Shown here piece after piece: positions 8,923-16,636 of a DNA stretch of 27,687 nucleotides (position 1 is the stretch's first letter; each line of letters opens with the position of its first letter). The notes under the pieces were generated by a model. The model saw only the letters and a list, made by a program, of their open reading frames with translations. It was not told the origin of the DNA and ran no database searches. Made by a program: the position numbers and the translations under genes. The stretch is from a virus. Where the stretch lies: the IMG/VR virus record IMGVR_UViG_3300022540_000656, positions 1 to 27,687 of that record. The stretch is one strand, 5' to 3'.

Positions 8923-10453
8923 TATAGTCGGTGGTGTCTGGGCCATAACGCCGAAGATGTATTCGGAAATCCAGCGCATATATGGGATACATATGGGCGG
9001 GGATAAGATAGACCTGAAGAAGTTCGAGGCTCAGACAGGTCTAAAGCTGAACAATGAACGCAAATATATGCAGATCATGGATTCCGGGCATGCCATTATA
9101 TCGCTTAATGGTATTATGTCAAAGCGCGCTAACATATTAATGAATATCAGTGGGGGCGTATCGACACAGATCGCCATGGATGAATTTAAATCTGCCCTGA
9201 ATAATCCAGAAATCCATACAATAATTATGAGCGTGGATAGCCCCGGGGGAACCGCTGACGGTGAATTCCCGGAGCTTATAAAATCAGCTCGGGGTATAAA
9301 GCCAGTTATCGCTCTTGTGGACGGCCAGGCCGCTTCACAGGCCTATTGGACCATAAGCGGGGCGGATAAGATCTATATCAATAGTCAGACCGCCATAACA
9401 GGTTCTATAGGCGTAATTATGAAACATATTGATAAGTCGAAGATTCTGGAAGCTGGCGGGGTTAAGATTACGGAGATACTGGCCGGCAAATACAAGAGCA
9501 TGGCTCCAGAACATAAACCTTTGAGCGAGGCTGGAGAGGCATATCTTCAAGATAAGGTTGATTATTTTTATAGCCTGTTTGTGGATACTGTCGCCGCTAA
9601 CCGTGGCATCGATGCCATGAATCATGAAGTCTGGGCCAACGGCGATTTTTTCATAGGCGAACAGGCCATAGAGGTCGGGCTGGTAGACGGTATCAAAACC
9701 TTGGATGCGATTATGGAAGAAACGGGCGGCGGTGATCCGTCCTTATCTGATAATGCGAACGGTGTTTCGCAGGTAGTAGCAGTAAAAGATATATCCAAAG
9801 GGCAGGTTGTTATGGCATCTGATATAAAAGATGTCGAAGCCGTGGCCGGTGATGTCACGGAACCAGACGAAGTGAAAGGACAAGAGACAATGACAAGAGA
9901 CAAATTGAAGGCAGAATTCCCCGAAGTCTATCAGGCCATCCATGACGATGCCTTTAAGGCCGGCGTGGATTCCGTGGACACGGATGCCATGAAGCGCGAT
10001 GGGGCCAAGGCCGAGACGCAGCGCATAGCTGACGTAAGGGCCACACTCATACCGGGCTTTGAGGCTCAGATAGACGCCATGGTGGCGGACGGCGAGACCA
10101 CGGGCGACCAGGCAGCAGGCAGGCTCATCAAGGCCCAGCAGGACGCCCTCAAGGATAAGGGCGCGGATGTGAGCAAGGATGCTGCCGACCTCATCCAGGC
10201 CAGCGCAGAACCTCAGGCCCCGGGAACTGAGGCAATCGCCGCCCTAGAAGCAGAGTGGTCCAAGATGGATGCGGATGCTCAGGCGGGATACGGTTCCAAA
10301 GAAGCATTTGTCGCTGCCGAGCAGAAGTGGGCCAAGATGGCTGCGGATGCTCAGGCGGGATACGGTTCCAAAGAAGCATTTGTCGCATATGAGAAAAACA
10401 TACACAGGGCCAGAACCAGAACGAGCCCGACAGGAGGTGACGACAATGCGTAA
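8909..10453 (+). CDS. S49-family prohead protease with C-terminal scaffold domain (lambda gpC-like)
   Basis: This protein processes the prohead. 514 aa. Residues about 60-265 form the SppA/S49 fold: VDSPGG near 109-114, catalytic serine S143 in GQAASQAYW, GSIGVIM near 165, and the general-base lysine K196 in GKYKSMAPE. Residues 266-514 are acidic and Ala/Gln-rich, like the scaffold part of lambda gpC/Nu3. An internal in-frame ATG at 9890 can make the scaffold alone. The C-terminus carries a 24-residue repeat (DAQAGYGSKEAFVA twice). The start has GGAGGAA 8 bases upstream. It overlaps the next gene by 8 bases. Confidence 0.93.
   Translation: MKLSDIVGGVWAITPKMYSEIQRIYGIHMGGDKIDLKKFEAQTGLKLNNERKYMQIMDSGHAIISLNGIMSKRANILMNISGGVSTQIAMDEFKSALNNPEIHTIIMSVDSPGGTADGEFPELIKSARGIKPVIALVDGQAASQAYWTISGADKIYINSQTAITGSIGVIMKHIDKSKILEAGGVKITEILAGKYKSMAPEHKPLSEAGEAYLQDKVDYFYSLFVDTVAANRGIDAMNHEVWANGDFFIGEQAIEVGLVDGIKTLDAIMEETGGGDPSLSDNANGVSQVVAVKDISKGQVVMASDIKDVEAVAGDVTEPDEVKGQETMTRDKLKAEFPEVYQAIHDDAFKAGVDSVDTDAMKRDGAKAETQRIADVRATLIPGFEAQIDAMVADGETTGDQAAGRLIKAQQDALKDKGADVSKDAADLIQASAEPQAPGTEAIAALEAEWSKMDADAQAGYGSKEAFVAAEQKWAKMAADAQAGYGSKEAFVAYEKNIHRARTRTSPTGGDDNA
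9890..10453 (+). CDS. nested capsid scaffold protein (Nu3-like internal start)
   Basis: In the same frame as the protease, ATG at 9890 (residue 328) is preceded by AAAGGA at 9875-9880. It would give a 187-aa acidic helical protein beginning MTRDKLKAEFPEVYQAIHDD, which resembles the N-terminus of free-standing phage scaffolds. In lambda, Nu3 is made from an internal start within gene C in the same way. It would line the inside of the prohead and be removed on maturation. The internal start is inferred from sequence, not proven. Confidence 0.65.
   Translation: MTRDKLKAEFPEVYQAIHDDAFKAGVDSVDTDAMKRDGAKAETQRIADVRATLIPGFEAQIDAMVADGETTGDQAAGRLIKAQQDALKDKGADVSKDAADLIQASAEPQAPGTEAIAALEAEWSKMDADAQAGYGSKEAFVAAEQKWAKMAADAQAGYGSKEAFVAYEKNIHRARTRTSPTGGDDNA
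10260..10386 (+). repeat. 72-bp period tandem repeat in the scaffold C-terminus
   Basis: A block of about 55 bases beginning CCAAGATGG and ending CATTTGTCGC occurs at 10260-10314 and 10332-10386 with a single central mismatch (A versus C). The period is 72 bases, so the reading frame is kept and 24 residues are duplicated. The low divergence points to a recent slip or unequal recombination event. Confidence 0.85.
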
Positions 10454-11414
10454 GAAAACTTCAAGGAAGATACACAAGGAATCTGCCGGCAGGCGCGCGG
10501 CCCATATGGGCATGCTAGCCGGCATGGGTCTAAAGGCTCTGCTTATGTTCGTGCTTCTGCTCGGCATAGGCATAGCAGCCGTATGGTCGGTCAATCCTAC
10601 CTATGGTAAGGCTTTGCTGGCAGCCATGACACTGGCTCCGATGGTTGGCTTGGCTACCGCTACAGCTCGCCAGAACAAGACGTATGAGACAGGTTTTATT
10701 AATTCAGCTCCCATTATAGCTGCCGATATTATATACGAAGGTTCTGCGGTGGGTGAAAATGGAACTGGTTATGCCCGTCCCCTTGTGGCAGGTGACAGGT
10801 TCCTTGGTTTTGCTGAAATATCACGGGATAATGCTGCCGGATCTGCTGGAGATAAGCCGGATGTGAGGATGTATAGTAAGGGTTTGGCAAATATCGCCCT
10901 ATCCGGTGCGGTCATCACGGATGTAGGGGCATCAGTCTATGCCTCCGATGATACCACTTTTTCATTCATCGGCACAAGCAATACCTATGTAGGCACTGTT
11001 TACAGATGGAAATCATCTGGCATAGTCGTACTTGAATTCGATGCCAGCAAGGTTGATCCTCTGGGCGAAGGCCGTATTCATGAGACCCTTTCTGATAACA
11101 AGACCTTTGATGCTCAGGACGTCTCGAAGGTCTTCTGGGTTGATACGGATGCAAAGGTTATGACCTTGCCGGCCACAGCTGCCGGACTTGGGCCGATAAC
11201 CCTTGTTAATGCAGGCGCCTTTGGTACCGTCATTATAACCCTTGATCCCAATGTCAATGATAAGATCATGGGCCCGAACCTTGCCGGCGTGGATGATAAA
11301 GACCTCATCAACACGAAGGCTACCGCCAATCGTGGTGATCGCGTAACGGTTACGGGTGACGGCGCCCTCGGCTGGTACGTTTCCGAGCTTAAAGGTACCT
11401 GGGCCGCTGAATAA
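10446..11414 (+). CDS. capsid decoration (cement)-like protein with N-terminal membrane segments
   Basis: This 322-aa protein has its start chosen by AGGAGGTGA at 10432-10440, 5 bases upstream. Residues about 75-200 (YETGFINSAPII, YEGSAVGENGTGYARPLVAGDRFLGFAEISRDNAAG, VGASVYASDDTTFSF, GTVYRWKSSGIVVLEFD) have the pattern of small capsid cement proteins encoded at the lambda gpD position. Residues 215-322 are a second beta-rich domain. Unusually, residues 1-19 are strongly basic and are followed by two hydrophobic stretches (about 28-47 and 55-73), the second ending ATATA, like a signal peptide or membrane hairpin. In-frame ATGs at 10626 and 10641 would skip this part but have poorly spaced ribosome sites. 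Capsid decoration is inferred from position and pattern. Confidence 0.7.
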   Translation: MRKKTSRKIHKESAGRRAAHMGMLAGMGLKALLMFVLLLGIGIAAVWSVNPTYGKALLAAMTLAPMVGLATATARQNKTYETGFINSAPIIAADIIYEGSAVGENGTGYARPLVAGDRFLGFAEISRDNAAGSAGDKPDVRMYSKGLANIALSGAVITDVGASVYASDDTTFSFIGTSNTYVGTVYRWKSSGIVVLEFDASKVDPLGEGRIHETLSDNKTFDAQDVSKVFWVDTDAKVMTLPATAAGLGPITLVNAGAFGTVIITLDPNVNDKIMGPNLAGVDDKDLINTKATANRGDRVTVTGDGALGWYVSELKGTWAAE

Positions 11415-11469: not shown

Positions 11470-12435
11470 ATGGGTAAAGGAATAGGCGAACTCACAAGCA
11501 AGGCCATAATGGGTATGTACTTCATGGCTCTTAGCGTGGATAACGGCGAGCCCTGGCTGGGCATGGTCGCCAATAATCCGCCTTTTGCAAGCACACAGGA
11601 CTCAGAGAAATACGGCTGGCTCGGACAGGTTCCGGGGCTTCAGAGATGGGCTGCGGGCCGCCAGAGAAAGGGCCTCAAGGATTACTCACATACTATTATC
11701 AATGAGGAGTGGGAATCCACATTGGATATCCTGATAAAGGATATGCGTCAGGATAAGACCGGCCAGCTCCAGATAAGGGTTAATGACCACACTGTAAGAG
11801 CCCAGAGCCACGATGCTGACCTGATAACCACATTGCTGGTGGATGGTACAAGCGAGACCTGCTATGATGGCGAGTATTTCTTTGATACCGACCATCCTGT
11901 GGGCGAGAGCACTGACAGTCCCGGTACTGCAAGCAATAAGCTGACCAGCGCTATTGTGGACAAGGATGCCGCTACAGTTGCGGAGATGTCAACCACAATA
12001 TATGCTGCCATCACGGCCATGGCGGGCTTCAAGGATGACCAGAACGAGCCGATGAATACCGCAGCCAAGAACTTTGTAGTCATGGTTCCACAGGAAATGT
12101 TCCCGTCCGCTCAGGCTGCCATAGCTGACATGACCATTCAGGGTACAAGCGGTGCTATAGACAATGCTCTGGCAAGGCAGAAGAAGTACAACGTGACAGT
12201 GGAGATAAATCCGAGGCTGACAGCCACGGACGCCTTCTATATCTTCCGCACGGATGCCAGCGTGAAGCCTATCATCAGGCAGCAGGAGCAGCCTTTGACC
12301 GCTTCTGCTCTGGCAGAAGGTTCCGATTATGCTTTTAATTTCAAGAGCTATCAGTTCGGGCTTGAGATAAACAAGGGTGTGGGCTATGGCTTCTGGCAGT
12401 ATGCCATTAAGCATACGTTCACCACAGCAGCATAG
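11470..12435 (+). CDS. major capsid protein, Mu gpT family
   Basis: This protein forms the icosahedral shell with the HK97 fold. 321 aa, close to Mu gpT (305). The family pattern is clear: SEKYGWLGQVPGLQRWAAGRQRKGLKDYSHTIINEEWESTLDI, a DDLG-like position (DMRQDKTGQL), then LVDGTSETCYDGEYFFDTDHPVGES and KNFVVMVPQEMF, and the C-terminal FRTDASVKPIIRQQEQ. Lambda gpE has no such pattern. The start follows AAAGGAG at 11453-11459, 10 bases upstream. The gene stands alone between a 55-base gap and a strong terminator, as expected for the most abundant structural protein. Confidence 0.9.
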   Translation: MGKGIGELTSKAIMGMYFMALSVDNGEPWLGMVANNPPFASTQDSEKYGWLGQVPGLQRWAAGRQRKGLKDYSHTIINEEWESTLDILIKDMRQDKTGQLQIRVNDHTVRAQSHDADLITTLLVDGTSETCYDGEYFFDTDHPVGESTDSPGTASNKLTSAIVDKDAATVAEMSTTIYAAITAMAGFKDDQNEPMNTAAKNFVVMVPQEMFPSAQAAIADMTIQGTSGAIDNALARQKKYNVTVEINPRLTATDAFYIFRTDASVKPIIRQQEQPLTASALAEGSDYAFNFKSYQFGLEINKGVGYGFWQYAIKHTFTTAA

Positions 12436-12456
12436 AGGTAGATAACCAGATATGGA

Positions 12457-12492
12457 GCCCGCCCGGCTCCAGATAGTCGGGCGGGCTTTTTT
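12457..12492 (+). terminator. rho-independent terminator after the capsid gene
   Basis: GCCCGCCCG (12457-12465) and CGGGCGGGC (12478-12486) form a perfect 9-bp GC-rich stem with a 12-base loop, followed by six T at 12487-12492. It sits 21 bases after the capsid stop and 13 bases before the next ATG. It probably limits expression of downstream genes relative to the capsid protein. Confidence 0.92.
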
Positions 12493-12505
12493 AAGAAAGG
12501 GAGTT

Positions 12506-13006
12506 ATGAAAGAATTCAGGATAAAAGATAACAGAAAACACGTACATATACCTATTGGCAGCATCATAGGGCTGACAGATGAGCAATATGCTGACCGTCA
12601 GCATAAACTTGAACTGGTGGACAAGGGCACATACAGGGTTTTACAGTCGGTTGGATTCAAGCGCGGTGAGGTCATCGGCATAGAGCCGGGCCAGTGCCCC
12701 AAGACCGGCCTTGAGCCTGTGGAGGCCGAAGACCATATCATCGATTCTGAGGGAACAGCTCGCGCTGGCGTAGACGCTGAGCATGACAACGGCGACGACA
12801 ACGGCGACGACAACGGCGACGACAACGGCGACGACAACGGCCCTACCCTTGATGATACTCTCAATGACATGTCAGACGATGAGATCAAAGAGTCCCTTGG
12901 TCAGCCTGGTCGCGAGATCAGCTTCCATCACAATACAGGCAGGCCCAAGCTTCAGGCCATGCTCAAGGACGCCATAGAGAAGGAGCTGGGGCAGGATAGT
13001 GATTAA
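12506..13006 (+). CDS. acidic head protein at the gpFI position, with DNGD repeats
   Basis: This 166-aa protein starts at 12506 after AAAGGGAG; an in-frame ATG at 12452 would put the terminator inside the gene and is rejected. Residues 1-75 form a compact beta/alpha domain (KHVHIPIGSIIGLTDEQYADRQ, TYRVLQSVGFKRGEVIGIE). Residues 94-112 are a DNGD repeat linker encoded by a 12-bp microsatellite. The C-terminus (MSDDEIKESLGQPGREISFHHNTGRPKLQAMLKDAI) resembles a small HeH/LEM or SAP-type helical domain, often found in phage proteins next to capsid genes. By position and acidity it corresponds to lambda gpFI, but I see no clear homology. Confidence 0.6.
   Translation: MKEFRIKDNRKHVHIPIGSIIGLTDEQYADRQHKLELVDKGTYRVLQSVGFKRGEVIGIEPGQCPKTGLEPVEAEDHIIDSEGTARAGVDAEHDNGDDNGDDNGDDNGDDNGPTLDDTLNDMSDDEIKESLGQPGREISFHHNTGRPKLQAMLKDAIEKELGQDSD
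12785..12841 (+). repeat. 12-bp tandem repeat GACAACGGCGAC
   Basis: Four full perfect copies (12785-12832) and most of a fifth encode (Asp-Asn-Gly-Asp)n as a flexible, acidic, possibly calcium-binding linker. Copies are exact, so the copy number may vary between relatives. Confidence 0.95.
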
Positions 13007-13874
13007 GCTTCGTAGATATATCGGCATGATCCTCATGGGGTTGGCCCTGGCAATGTCGGCAATCCCGGCATATGCCGGGGTCCCTGCCGATACCAGGCAT
13101 GTCTATGTAATTGACCGTAACGGAGATTATCTGGAGATAGTCAACAATGGTTCCATTGATGTAAATATTCAGGATCAGACATCGGATGCCTTGTTTATTA
13201 AGTTGCATCAACATTTAGGTGCCGGAATAACATTGACTTCCGATACTTCATTGAATGATACCATCCTCACCGTAGCCGAAGGGCACGGGGCCGTTGCGGG
13301 GAACTTGATATGTCTTAAAGAGAGTGATGAATATTATCAAGGGACTGTCCTATCTACAACAGCCACGACCATAACTCTTGATATGCCACTTGATTTTGCC
13401 TTTACCGCAGGCGCTTATTGTTCCCCGACCACTGATCAGATGGGAGTGGATGGTTCCAGCACTGACCAGACTTTTCACTTACAGCCTAACGATGGCGTTA
13501 AGTGGGATATCACACAACTGAATTGTATAATTAACGGGACTGGCGTTATGGATTCCGAGCAATTCGGTGATATAGCCGCCTTGACTAATGGCTTGGTTAT
13601 CAGAAAACAGGACGGACAGGATTCGACGAAGAATCTTTTTAATGTAAAGAATAATGCCGACTGGTCACTCAGGGGCCAGATTATTTATGATCCAAAGGCC
13701 CCGGCAGGGACAAGCGCGGTTAGGATAAATATAGTATTTGGCGGTCAGGGAGCTTCGGGTGTAGTTATTCGTCTTGACGGTTCGTTGGAACAGGAATTTA
13801 TAATTATCGTCAGGGACGATGCAAGCGCCGTTGGTATTAAATGTGAAGCAATAGGTCATAAGGTTGTTGATTAA
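12999..13874 (+). CDS. secreted head-module protein 1 (Sec signal peptide)
   Basis: This 291-aa protein starts at a GTG overlapping the previous stop. The first 26 residues are a textbook signal peptide: basic KLRR, hydrophobic GMILMGLALAMS, and cleavage after AYA. The mature protein begins GVPADTRHVYVIDRNGDYLEI, a block shared with the next gene product. It is then beta-rich: a middle domain with SLNDTILTVAEGHGAVAGNLICL and a C-terminal domain with LRGQIIYDPKAPAGTSAVRINIVFGG. It is flanked by head genes, so it may be a virion surface protein. The export signal is unusual for that, and the protein may instead act in the periplasm or at the cell surface. No family assigned. Confidence 0.65.
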   Translation: MIKLRRYIGMILMGLALAMSAIPAYAGVPADTRHVYVIDRNGDYLEIVNNGSIDVNIQDQTSDALFIKLHQHLGAGITLTSDTSLNDTILTVAEGHGAVAGNLICLKESDEYYQGTVLSTTATTITLDMPLDFAFTAGAYCSPTTDQMGVDGSSTDQTFHLQPNDGVKWDITQLNCIINGTGVMDSEQFGDIAALTNGLVIRKQDGQDSTKNLFNVKNNADWSLRGQIIYDPKAPAGTSAVRINIVFGGQGASGVVIRLDGSLEQEFIIIVRDDASAVGIKCEAIGHKVVD

Positions 13875-13884
13875 AGGAGGCGAT

Positions 13885-14526
13885 GTGAAATCAATACAGA
13901 TATATATATTTATTGCAATTCTTCTTATTTTATCCAGTGTGACAATAATCAATGCCGCCGGGGTCCCGCCGTCAACTGAGCCCCGTTATATAATCGACCG
14001 CGAAGGTGATTATTCCAAGGTCACGACATCTGGGGGGCTAGTTGTTGTTTCGACTGATTACGCACACCACGAAAATCACGACGGCAACGCTTATCAGATA
14101 ACCAATTCCGCTACATTGGCATCAGGTGCGGCCAGTAAGATATTCATTAACACGCCCGCCGCGTCTTCCGGCATTGTCCATTTGATATATCAGACAAGGG
14201 CTAGTGGTGAAGCCAATGTGAAACTATATGAATTTACGGAAGTGTCTGATATAGGGACACCGAAGATCCCTGTCAATAAAAACAGGACAAGTTCTAATAT
14301 ATCAGCAACTTCGATATCACTTGCGCCGACCGTTACGGCTCTTGGGAATCTTATCAGTGAAGCCCATTTCGGTTCGGGACAGGCCCAGGGCGGAGAATCA
14401 CGCGGAATACATGAATTTGTATTGAGGCCCTTAACATCTTATTTCCTAAATACCGTATCTGAGGCCGCGAACAATGACACATTTACAGAAATGGACTGGT
14501 ACGAAGACAGCGGGGACGCGCCTTAA
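13885..14526 (+). CDS. secreted head-module protein 2 (Sec signal peptide)
   Basis: This 213-aa protein starts at the GTG at 13885, 4 bases after AAAGGAGG; an in-frame ATG at 13864 overlaps the previous gene and has no site. Residues 1-24 are a signal peptide ending INA. The mature start, AGVPPSTEPRYIIDREGDYSKV, is related to that of the preceding protein. The rest (YAHHENHDGNAYQITN, FINTPAASSGIVHLIYQTRASGEANVKLYEF, GTPKIPVNKNRTSSN, ending EMDWYEDSGD) fits a beta-rich domain that I recall from hypothetical proteins in many phage head regions, usually without a signal peptide. Virion decoration is likely by context; the role of export is unknown. Confidence 0.7.
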   Translation: MKSIQIYIFIAILLILSSVTIINAAGVPPSTEPRYIIDREGDYSKVTTSGGLVVVSTDYAHHENHDGNAYQITNSATLASGAASKIFINTPAASSGIVHLIYQTRASGEANVKLYEFTEVSDIGTPKIPVNKNRTSSNISATSISLAPTVTALGNLISEAHFGSGQAQGGESRGIHEFVLRPLTSYFLNTVSEAANNDTFTEMDWYEDSGDAP

Positions 14527-14846
14527 TGTCCCTGTTCACTGATGATACAACGCGGGCCATGGTGCAGGCCATAGGCTCCGGCGCTAAAGGCACATATGTG
14601 CCGGCAGAGGGCGGCGCAGGAACATCCATAGACGTGGACTTCCGTAATGAGTTCGAGGCGGCCGCCATGTTCGAGGTCTCAGTGGAGGAATCCAACCCCA
14701 TAGCTTTTGTGGTGACCTCGGACCTGACGGGTACTGTCCAGGGGGGCAGGCTTCTCATAGACTCTGTGAATTACTATATCATCGGCCCAGGCCGTCCGGA
14801 TGCCGAAGGAATGACACTCCTTGACCTGAGCGAGGTGCAGCCATGA
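14526..14846 (+). CDS. head-tail joining protein, lambda gpFII-like
   Basis: This 106-aa protein has the pattern of gpFII-like connectors: short helix, then a beta sandwich with VEESNPIAFVVTSDLTGTVQGGRLLIDSVNYYIIGPGRPDAEGMTLLDLSE, where the conserved Y-x-I...PD..GM..L ending is visible. It would close the portal channel and accept the tail. The start is a TAATG overlap with the preceding gene, and its end overlaps the next ATG (ATGA). Confidence 0.75.
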   Translation: MSLFTDDTTRAMVQAIGSGAKGTYVPAEGGAGTSIDVDFRNEFEAAAMFEVSVEESNPIAFVVTSDLTGTVQGGRLLIDSVNYYIIGPGRPDAEGMTLLDLSEVQP

Positions 14847-15115
14847 GTGATACGAATTGTGCAGAGCGTCATGTTAACTGCAAGGATCGCATGGATTCTC
14901 ATGCAAGAGATATCAGAACAAAGTTGCAGAGCAAAACATTTTACTGGATAACTGCATTTATAATTATTAGTCTTTCCGGCAGCTATGCTTATACTCATAA
15001 AGTCGAGGCTAAAACATATGAAAATGAGAAGGAAATTCAGCAGATCGTCACTAAGGAAGATATGGAGAAAATGCAGAAGGCTCTTGTGGATGCCATTAAG
15101 GAGATCAGCCATTAA
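14843..15115 (+). CDS. single-pass membrane protein of the lysis cassette
   Basis: This 90-aa protein has a polar N-terminus with two Cys, one hydrophobic segment at about 33-50 (FYWITAFIIISLSGSYAY), and an acidic coiled-coil-like C-terminal half (EAKTYENEKEIQQIVTKEDMEKMQKAL). This layout fits an i-spanin or a holin accessory protein, but gives no proof. It is coupled to the connector gene (ATGA overlap) and sits directly before the endolysin. Confidence 0.55.
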   Translation: MSDTNCAERHVNCKDRMDSHARDIRTKLQSKTFYWITAFIIISLSGSYAYTHKVEAKTYENEKEIQQIVTKEDMEKMQKALVDAIKEISH

Positions 15116-15689
15116 TAGAAAACGCATAAACGCTTTGTGCATGAAGGCCATAACAATGAATGAAATAGGCGGCAATGCCGACCTTGCATATAAATTCTCG
15201 GACCCTGACGGCGAGCGCGCGGGCAAGTCCGGCTGGTCCTTCGGGCGTGTCCAGTTCGATACCCTCAATAACTTTGACGCGCTTCATTGCCTTGAGGCTT
15301 GCGGGTTCACCATATATGAGGTGGTGGGAATCATCCGCCAGGATATCTCCATGGCCAAGCTGAACGCCAAGCTAAGAGACAAGAGCGCCATCGTTGACCA
15401 GTATGACCGTGCGCACGTAAGCAAGTCCATGCAGCACTGTGAGCGCCTGGTGGACGGTTACGGAATCAAACTGGCCTCTGAAGACGTCATGGTTCATATA
15501 GTGGATTATCATAACCAGTTGTATATGAGCACGGGCGGGCCGCTCCATAAATGGCTCCAGGCACAGTTTAAGCCTGTCACGGCTGAGATGATATTGAACT
15601 TTAAGCTGGAGAAGACGCACTGGGGGCATATACGCTCTGACGATGTGCAGCGCCGCTGGCGTAATATCGAGAGGATACTGGAGGACTGA
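15090..15689 (+). CDS. endolysin, putative lysozyme-like peptidoglycan hydrolase
   Basis: About 180-199 aa depending on the start. The core (MNEIGGNADLAYKFSDPDGERAGKSGWSFGRVQFDTLNNFDALHCLEACGFT, IVDQYDRAHV, HIVDYHNQLYMS, LEKTHWGHIRSDDVQRRW) has the look of lysozyme-fold phage enzymes: an early Glu (NEIGG) as likely catalytic acid and an S-G-W-S-F-G substrate cleft motif. No signal peptide, so release through a holin is expected. The start is uncertain. ATG 15090 has AAGG 10 bases upstream; ATT 15111 has AAGGAG at perfect 7-base spacing and overlaps the previous stop; ATGs at 15141 and 15156 are shorter options. Its place before a holin-like gene supports the role. Confidence 0.7.
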   Translation: MPLRRSAINRKRINALCMKAITMNEIGGNADLAYKFSDPDGERAGKSGWSFGRVQFDTLNNFDALHCLEACGFTIYEVVGIIRQDISMAKLNAKLRDKSAIVDQYDRAHVSKSMQHCERLVDGYGIKLASEDVMVHIVDYHNQLYMSTGGPLHKWLQAQFKPVTAEMILNFKLEKTHWGHIRSDDVQRRWRNIERILED

Positions 15690-15862
15690 TGATAGCTAAG
15701 CATAAAATTATCACTCCAAATTGTCATGAAGTGCAAGGCAGTCCTGAAAAAGCCATTGAAATTGCTTTGCATGAAATTAAACAGAGTGTTATTGATGCCG
15801 TAAAAGGATACGGAGAAGAAGCAAATATTCATATAAAAGTAGAAATAGAGAGGTTATCATGA
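15689..15862 (+). CDS. 57-aa hypothetical protein in the lysis cassette
   Basis: A short gene beginning MIAKHKIITPNCHEVQGSPE, with a helix (KAIEIALHEIKQSVIDAVKGY) and a final beta strand (ANIHIKVEIERLS). It has GGAGG four bases upstream, shares A/TGATG with the endolysin stop and ATGA with the next start, so it is tightly coupled on both sides. Soluble, no family recognised. A small regulator of lysis is possible. Confidence 0.6.
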   Translation: MIAKHKIITPNCHEVQGSPEKAIEIALHEIKQSVIDAVKGYGEEANIHIKVEIERLS

Positions 15863-16095
15863 TAAAGAATTCAAGCGGACGTTTGATGGCGTTAATGATA
15901 ATAACCACATGGCTTGTAATCGCCGTGGTGAGAGCTGTTGACAGTATCGATCCTGAAATAATTGATATTCCCTATGGATGGGCTGCCGCTGCTGTCATGT
16001 TCTACTTCATGCGCAACATGAGCGCCGAAGTACTTCAGGCCATCGTCATGCGTTTTCTGGGCATGAAGCCAGAGCCGAAGGGGCCAAGTGCCTAA
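15859..16095 (+). CDS. putative holin, two membrane segments
   Basis: This 78-aa protein has two hydrophobic segments (about 8-27, RLMALMIITTWLVIAVVRAV, and 39-53, YGWAAAAVMFYFMR) separated by a short acidic turn (DSIDPEIIDI), then a positively charged tail (FLGMKPEPKGPSA). This is the class II holin layout. It would make the inner-membrane hole that releases the endolysin encoded just upstream. GAGAGG lies 5 bases before the ATG. Confidence 0.65.
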   Translation: MIKNSSGRLMALMIITTWLVIAVVRAVDSIDPEIIDIPYGWAAAAVMFYFMRNMSAEVLQAIVMRFLGMKPEPKGPSA

Positions 16096-16636
16096 GCGCA
16101 GAGAAATAATAATTATCGTAATCGCCATACTATGTGCCTCATCGGCTGTGCATGGCTACTTTAACCCGCGTCTTGAGACTCAGACCGTCTATGTGGAGGT
16201 TGATGTGCCCAAGGACGTGGTGAGGGTGGAGACCAGGGAGATCCTCGTGGATCGCGTGGTGGTCAAATGGAAGACCAGGATAATCAAGGTGCTGCCAGAG
16301 CTGCCCGAAAGCATTAAATCTGATAAGACCAAGCAGATCACCGCTGTGGGCGATATACCGCCCTATGCGGGGCATACGCGCGTGGTCGCTGTGTTTGATA
16401 CGGATACGGGTGTAACGTCCCTTACATCAAGACGCAAGTCCCTCCCCTTCTTTTCATCTCTGAATGAGAAGGAGCTGGGCGCGAGGTATGGCCTCAGCGG
16501 TTCTAGCGGCATGGGCTTTGATATCTATGGGCGGTGGACCTTCCTGCGCGTGGGCAGCATCTTCAGTTCCATGTACCTGGAAGGCAATAGTAATTCACAA
16601 TTCAAAGCCATGCTGATGGCGGGGTATAGGTTCTAA
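16088..16636 (+). CDS. membrane-anchored periplasmic protein, spanin-like candidate
   Basis: This 182-aa protein starts at GTG with AAGGGG upstream, overlapping the holin-like gene. A basic KRRE is followed by a hydrophobic anchor (residues 6-21), and then an extended valine-rich, charged periplasmic segment (QTVYVEVDVPKDVVRVETRE...VVVKWKTRIIKV). The last ~60 residues are beta-like and end in aromatic YRF, as do many outer-membrane strands. The Cys after the hydrophobic segment (AILC) does not fit a standard lipobox. Its place after endolysin and holin suggests an envelope-bridging role, but no spanin family is recognised. Confidence 0.5.
   Translation: MPKRREIIIIVIAILCASSAVHGYFNPRLETQTVYVEVDVPKDVVRVETREILVDRVVVKWKTRIIKVLPELPESIKSDKTKQITAVGDIPPYAGHTRVVAVFDTDTGVTSLTSRRKSLPFFSSLNEKELGARYGLSGSSGMGFDIYGRWTFLRVGSIFSSMYLEGNSNSQFKAMLMAGYRF

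Follow-up and report, generated by a model that had tools for sequence, protein, structure and literature searches.

Predicted export signals on accessory head proteins of a tailed-phage contig, and the recurrence of such prefixes on head-surface proteins of other phages

In a 27,687-base viral contig record (the whole stretch of DNA that was analysed, hereafter the window), two adjacent genes of a siphophage-type head module, here called SP1 and SP2, encode proteins in which a predicted Sec signal peptide precedes a body of a phage structural family. Read from their sequences, the two signals are prefixes added to otherwise ordinary phage structural bodies, and comparable additions recur in unrelated phages, several times over and of separate origin, on cement and other fibre-like proteins. 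Core head proteins almost never carry such prefixes. The reading that we tentatively favour, at somewhat less than even probability, is that the two products are accessory proteins of the head surface, of the fibre or turret type, which would leave the cytosol by export and join the virion only at lysis.

The genes of the module follow the order large terminase, portal, head maturation protease, cement/decoration protein, Mu gpT-like capsid, gpFI-position gene, SP1, SP2 and gpFII-like gene, after which come a short stretch resembling a lysis cassette and then the tail genes. From the cement gene onward, the head genes lie on the + strand at 10446–11414 (cement, phrog_1731), 11470–12435 (Mu gpT-like major capsid protein, PF10124), 12452–13006 (gpFI-position gene), 12999–13874 (SP1, 291 aa), 13885–14526 (SP2, 213 aa) and 14526–14846 (gpFII-like head closure protein, PF05354 and phrog_82); these flanks bear out the placement of SP1 and SP2 between the gpFI- and gpFII-position genes given in a preliminary description of the sequence. 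SP1 starts with a GTG at 12999 that overlaps the stop of the gpFI-position gene (GTGATTAA), to which it is translationally coupled. SP2 starts with a GTG at 13885, upstream of which AAAGGAGG lies with good spacing; the TTG at 13864 given in the list of open reading frames is unneeded. At the other end, the SP2 stop and the gpFII-like start codon overlap in TAATG. SP1 and SP2 belong to the head operon and are translationally coupled in it. Promoter-like sites that might serve SP1 and SP2 separately were not clearly above those in shuffled sequence. A reading of the pair as moron-type superinfection exclusion genes, which rests on a promoter and terminator of their own, was rejected, the genes being overlapping or closely coupled.

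Several other features of the window were recorded. The gpFI-position gene contains a tandem repeat of GACGACAACGGC (12780–12840) coding for (NGDD)n, the protease/scaffold gene ends with a duplicated KMxADAQAGYGSKEAFVA segment (10250–10430), and two paralogous small genes (1373–1843 and 2273–2980) have near-identical starts (MKCPECGKDIYPKVLPHCEGA...). The lysis-type cassette between the head-closure and tail genes (14843–16636) comprises a single-TM protein, a possible endolysin, and holin-like and spanin-like members. Its spanin-position gene (16088–16636) has no family match and encodes a signal-like N-terminus (...SAVHG followed by YFNP) and a C-terminus with alternating strands that ends in GYRF and is reminiscent of the end of an outer-membrane barrel.

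SP1 begins with MIKLRRYIGMILMGLALAMSAIPAYA followed by GVP, and SP2 with MKSIQIYIFIAILLILSSVTIINA followed by AGVP. Both show the features expected for Sec and SPase I (a positive n-region, an uncharged h-region and small residues at −3/−1) according to a heuristic tried on 75 E. coli proteins, with locations assigned by the author. The heuristic accepted 11/11 exported and 0/40 cytosolic proteins, 2/3 lipoproteins and 7/21 inner-membrane proteins; cleaved signals and N-terminal anchors are indistinguishable to it. The export-type character of both predicted N-termini is well supported, and the earlier claim of two neighbouring Sec-type signals ending at AYA and INA stands, as the heuristic accepts both. 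Cleavage is predicted from the −3/−1 residues alone, between AYA and GVP in SP1 (signal peptide aa 1–26, 12999–13076) and between INA and AGVP in SP2 (aa 1–24, 13885–13956), where the hydrophobic stretch is long. A lipoprotein reading (SPase II, Llp-like) was discarded, as a lipobox is absent, the first cysteine of SP1 is residue 105, and SP2 is free of cysteine. Disulfide formation as a reason for export was rejected as well, despite the four cysteines of SP1, because the signal-bearing relatives in L022 and L024 have none.

Each signal is followed by a shared block with its next residues (GVPADTRHVYVIDRNGDYLEIVNNGSIDVN, 13077–13166 in SP1; AGVPPSTEPRYIIDREGDYSKVTTSGGLVVV, 13957–14049 in SP2). 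Its alignment score is 72, whereas 20,000 shuffles reached 44 at most, confirming that the common AGVP segment of the preliminary description is far above chance; BLASTP matches the two copies at E 5e-7 (E 4e-6 across the whole record). Similarity between the two proteins is confined to the signal peptide and ~25 residues; their description as related secreted proteins therefore applies to that segment and fails for the bodies, which come from different phage structural families. A search of 2.9 million contigs with a DNA pattern for AGVP...IDRxGD returned three chance matches only, and the block at such spacing is seen solely in this phage.

Beyond the block, SP1 classes as a phage head-surface or fibre-type protein. 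Its body is of an ordinary phage structural family and is modelled (pLDDT >90 across most of residues 60–290) as a jelly roll into which a beta-barrel of the tailspike type is inserted. The barrel (residues 70–146) matches phage tailspikes and baseplate proteins at Z 11–12, and in a sequence search of solved structures it weakly matches the tail tube 9n71 (E 0.0012). Residues 50–291 match the capsid turret of HFTV1 (8qpg_TD) at Z 8.6, other jelly rolls being close behind. The turret of this Haloferax tailed virus 1 is a capsid-surface protein with a jelly roll like that of SP1 (Z 8.6 over 105 residues), but no sequence relation is shown and the fold match is near noise level for common folds. 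By sequence, SP1 residues 15–277 align with p0030 of Vibrio phage PS25B.1 (30% identity, E 6e-21), which sits between terminase and portal. Both p0030 and gp05 of Vibrio phage 1.021 share with SP1 the jelly-roll/barrel body and a position in the head gene cluster, but their N-terminal module (MSTTR.NLDVTQYV...) is signal-less and unlike that of SP1.

Single-sequence scans of viral contigs gave zero close relatives of SP1 or SP2, and profiles were required; two profile scans yielded 47 distinct viral-contig proteins with the SP1 body. A signal peptide is absent from 44 of these, and the remaining three (L014, L022 and L024) bear three different ones. N-terminal modules like that of L014, a likeness judged by eye, occur without a signal in L238, L240 and L243, and the module of L024 recurs signal-less in L027 and L031. 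L031 has the portal-protease-cement-capsid order of the window and a signal-less body-1 protein in the slot of SP1, together with a cement protein that lacks an extension; in another relative, L063, the slot between gpFI and gpFII is empty. No window-like relative carrying SP1 and SP2 together was found.

The body of SP2 (residues 58–211) matches phrog_5335 by profile (E 2.6e-9). Two proteins of that family, ORF57 of Pantoea phage LIMEzero and UFK26757 of Roseobacter phage RDJL6, have an SP2-type body and no signal peptide, and the latter lies within the head gene region, as SP2 does. None of 20 distinct viral relatives of SP2 has a signal peptide, and most begin xVERESLTTKSRHVSPSYVDKDG, a sequence that can be aligned to the AGVP block. 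SP2 was modelled poorly, with a mean pLDDT of 52, and its fold matches are weak leads. The sequence search of solved structures gave zero matches for body 2 or for the cement protein, and absences from Foldseek/VIA carry no weight.

The preliminary description had proposed that signal-less homologues beginning at the AGVP block would speak against secretion. At the level of the families such homologues are what was found, in the large majority for SP1 and without exception for SP2, whose relatives’ first residues align with the block. With signal-less homologues found for both bodies, secretion is not an intrinsic property of either family. Export in this phage is nevertheless unrefuted, since the signal is a prefix added to ordinary head-surface proteins.

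Prefixes of a related kind are found on cement proteins. The core of the window cement protein matches phrog_1731 (E 1.2e-18) and is preceded by a hydrophobic N-terminal extension of ~70 aa, absent from most relatives, which starts at the ATG at 10446 behind the ribosome-binding site AGGAGG. The extension has a basic N-terminus of 30 residues and then a strong hydrophobic segment, which supports in part the earlier listing of this protein as a third product with an export-type N-terminus; however, an A-X-A site is absent, the protein fails the signal-peptide test, and its prefix looks more like a membrane anchor than a cleavable signal. Among 80 relatives from viral contigs and 69 from genomes, nearly all start MTTLAxx. 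Prefixed members occur in L070, L072, L074, L090, L093, L110, the L113 group, L148, L149, L167, L178, L206, phage phi3LM21 and the window, and sequenced prophages of Rhizobium, Mesorhizobium and Nitrosospira, as well as phi3LM21, are among the carriers; Rhizobium tibeticum CGMCC 1.7071 and Nitrosospira sp. Nsp2 each have such a prophage. The prefixes are hydrophobic, mostly of Sec type and furnished with a good ribosome-binding site, and most end in A-X-A sites (AQA, AFA, AEA, ASA); those of a rhizobial group (phi3LM21, L167, L178) are anchor-like and have no clear A-X-A site. A hand-joined probe (the L090 N-terminus plus the family consensus) was used solely to locate phage records.

The distribution of the cement extension points to repeated change. 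In a FastTree phylogeny of 118 cores, 16 extended rows require 13 changes, at least 7 of them forced by well-supported branches, each being a gain or a loss with no direction inferred. Even close relatives differ in the prefix, phi3LM21 and the Ensifer locus L169 being sisters. The gap between the protease stop and MTTLA measures 172–248 bp in extended members and mostly −1 to 84 bp otherwise, which makes the prefix ~150–200 bp of inserted DNA. L070, L093 and L113 have lost the internal ATG, and the upstream start must therefore be used. There was no sign of a small membrane gene that first stood alone and later became fused to cement, the protease-cement gap being too short for one in most unextended relatives. 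Known phage cement proteins (phrog_1731; PF22758, with E217 gp24 and Pam3 gp6; PF09956, Phage_cement_2) resemble the window protein in core and in position between protease and capsid; the extended lineages differ from them in a hydrophobic or Sec-type N-terminal extension of ~40–70 residues, for which no description was found. PF22758 is weakly matched by 3/9 extended members and by the signal-less L063 protein (22.5 bits, E 1.3e-4, below the curated cut-off of 27). Core identity between extended and unextended members reaches 78%. Given a core conserved with and without the prefix, capsid binding is probably kept, and extended cement proteins probably retain their capsid role. In phi3LM21 (L143, MF614628; 5911–6459) the annotation puts the start of decoration gene p34 too far downstream, and an upstream start adds a hydrophobic N-terminus. 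The published description of this phage lists p34, on the basis of prediction, as a virion structural protein and does not mention a signal peptide (PMC5537653).

Prefixes concentrate on surface proteins. Across the viral loci, 8/62 cement proteins and 3/21 body-1 proteins are signal-positive, against 0/217 control genes (terminase, portal, protease, capsid, gpFI-position and small head genes); the cement excess has a Fisher p of 4e-6 in a test that ignores relatedness. In the genome loci the excess is weak, 5/68 cement proteins (L212, judged spurious, being omitted) against 5/259 controls (p 0.04, relatedness again ignored), and at least some of the control positives are clearly spurious. Because the rows are related, the p-values are only indicative. 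Signal-bearing genes also occur in clusters, with four consecutive fibre-like genes in L024 (2004–5818), one of them a right-handed beta-helix (PF13229), and three consecutive genes directly after the head genes in L084 (8468–10842). In L133 (9008–9580), a signal peptide precedes a full-length phrog_22694 protein (E 4e-53 from profile position 4). Further genes with signals were listed incompletely and with some false entries, as the simple gene caller breaks down where GC content is high.

These observations suggest a course of events in which this phage lineage added Sec signal peptides to SP1 and SP2, the cement prefix being a related, hydrophobic one. SP1 and SP2 would pass through Sec and be cut after AYA and INA, and the mature AGVP... 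proteins would wait in the periplasm of a Gram-negative host until lysis mixes the compartments and allows them to bind the finished capsid. The shared mature N-terminus is likely an arm that docks both bodies onto one virion site. T4 Soc and Hoc and phage L Dec, all decoration proteins, reportedly bind preformed capsids in vitro, so coating at the time of lysis is feasible. Together with the conserved cement core, this leads us to favour export with late docking. Against it, export, cleavage and presence in the virion are predictions, and the cement prefixes of the window and the rhizobial group look like anchors. Moreover, a protein kept from the capsid until lysis implies that decoration is either dispensable or very fast. 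The more general proposition, that some tailed phages with Gram-negative hosts split assembly by late Sec export of cement and head-fibre proteins to the periplasm and coat their capsids only at lysis, is possible but doubtful.

Alternatively, the exported proteins could act on the host, their virion-type binding domains in the periplasm or, after lysis, on cell debris blocking receptors or incoming phages. The clean signal peptides of SP1 and SP2, bodies that resemble receptor-binding tips (a tailspike-type barrel, jelly-roll knobs) and the lysis-type cassette directly downstream fit such a role. T5 Llp is a phage exclusion lipoprotein; like it, SP1 and SP2 are phage-encoded, exported by prediction here and potentially able to block receptors, but they differ in having no lipobox, larger virion-type bodies and expression from the head operon. 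With neither lipobox nor promoter of their own, with no evident route from the periplasm to the outer face before lysis, and with the same prefix on cement proteins left unexplained, we consider an action on the host rather unlikely, though a serious rival.

The hydrophobic N-termini could also be uncleaved anchors, heads being finished or tailed at the inner membrane or the anchors staying in the virion. T4 proheads assemble on the membrane, which provides a precedent, and membrane-tethered assembly fits the window cement best among the rivals, as clear A-X-A sites are absent there and in the rhizobial group; the long hydrophobic stretch of SP2 is also in keeping with an anchor. However, SP1 and most cement prefixes bear textbook A-X-A sites, and the positive-inside rule would put the bodies on the periplasmic side, away from the heads; anchoring is unlikely overall, though likewise a serious rival. 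Less probable by a clear step is that the prefixes are neutral, signals acquired by recombination on dispensable surface proteins and exporting them to no benefit. Turnover between such close relatives as phi3LM21 and Ensifer L169 and the accessory nature of SP1 and SP2, whose slot is empty in L063, agree with neutrality; repeated gain in unrelated families, the three- and four-gene signal clusters, well-kept n/h/c regions and the loss of the old start codon do not. Misassigned start codons or hydrophobic stretches arisen by chance are hardly credible as the source of the pattern: the heuristic does accept some membrane proteins and a few control genes of the genome loci, but strong ribosome-binding sites, inserted DNA of 150–200 bp, lost internal starts and recurrence in cultured genomes all oppose an artefact.

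Tailed-phage virions are held to be finished in the cytosol. In open full texts, with preprints and most subscription papers outside the scope, no description of signal peptides on head-surface proteins of tailed phages was found; the parts are of known kinds, and their combination and recurrence appear undescribed. As the p34 case illustrates, start codons can be set too late, and the trait may therefore have stayed hidden. Direct tests are possible in hosts whose prophages have been sequenced (Rhizobium tibeticum, Nitrosospira and Mesorhizobium). If true, export signals that recur on capsid-surface proteins and hardly on core head proteins would mean that these phages have a second assembly compartment, or that their virion proteins have a second job in the envelope.
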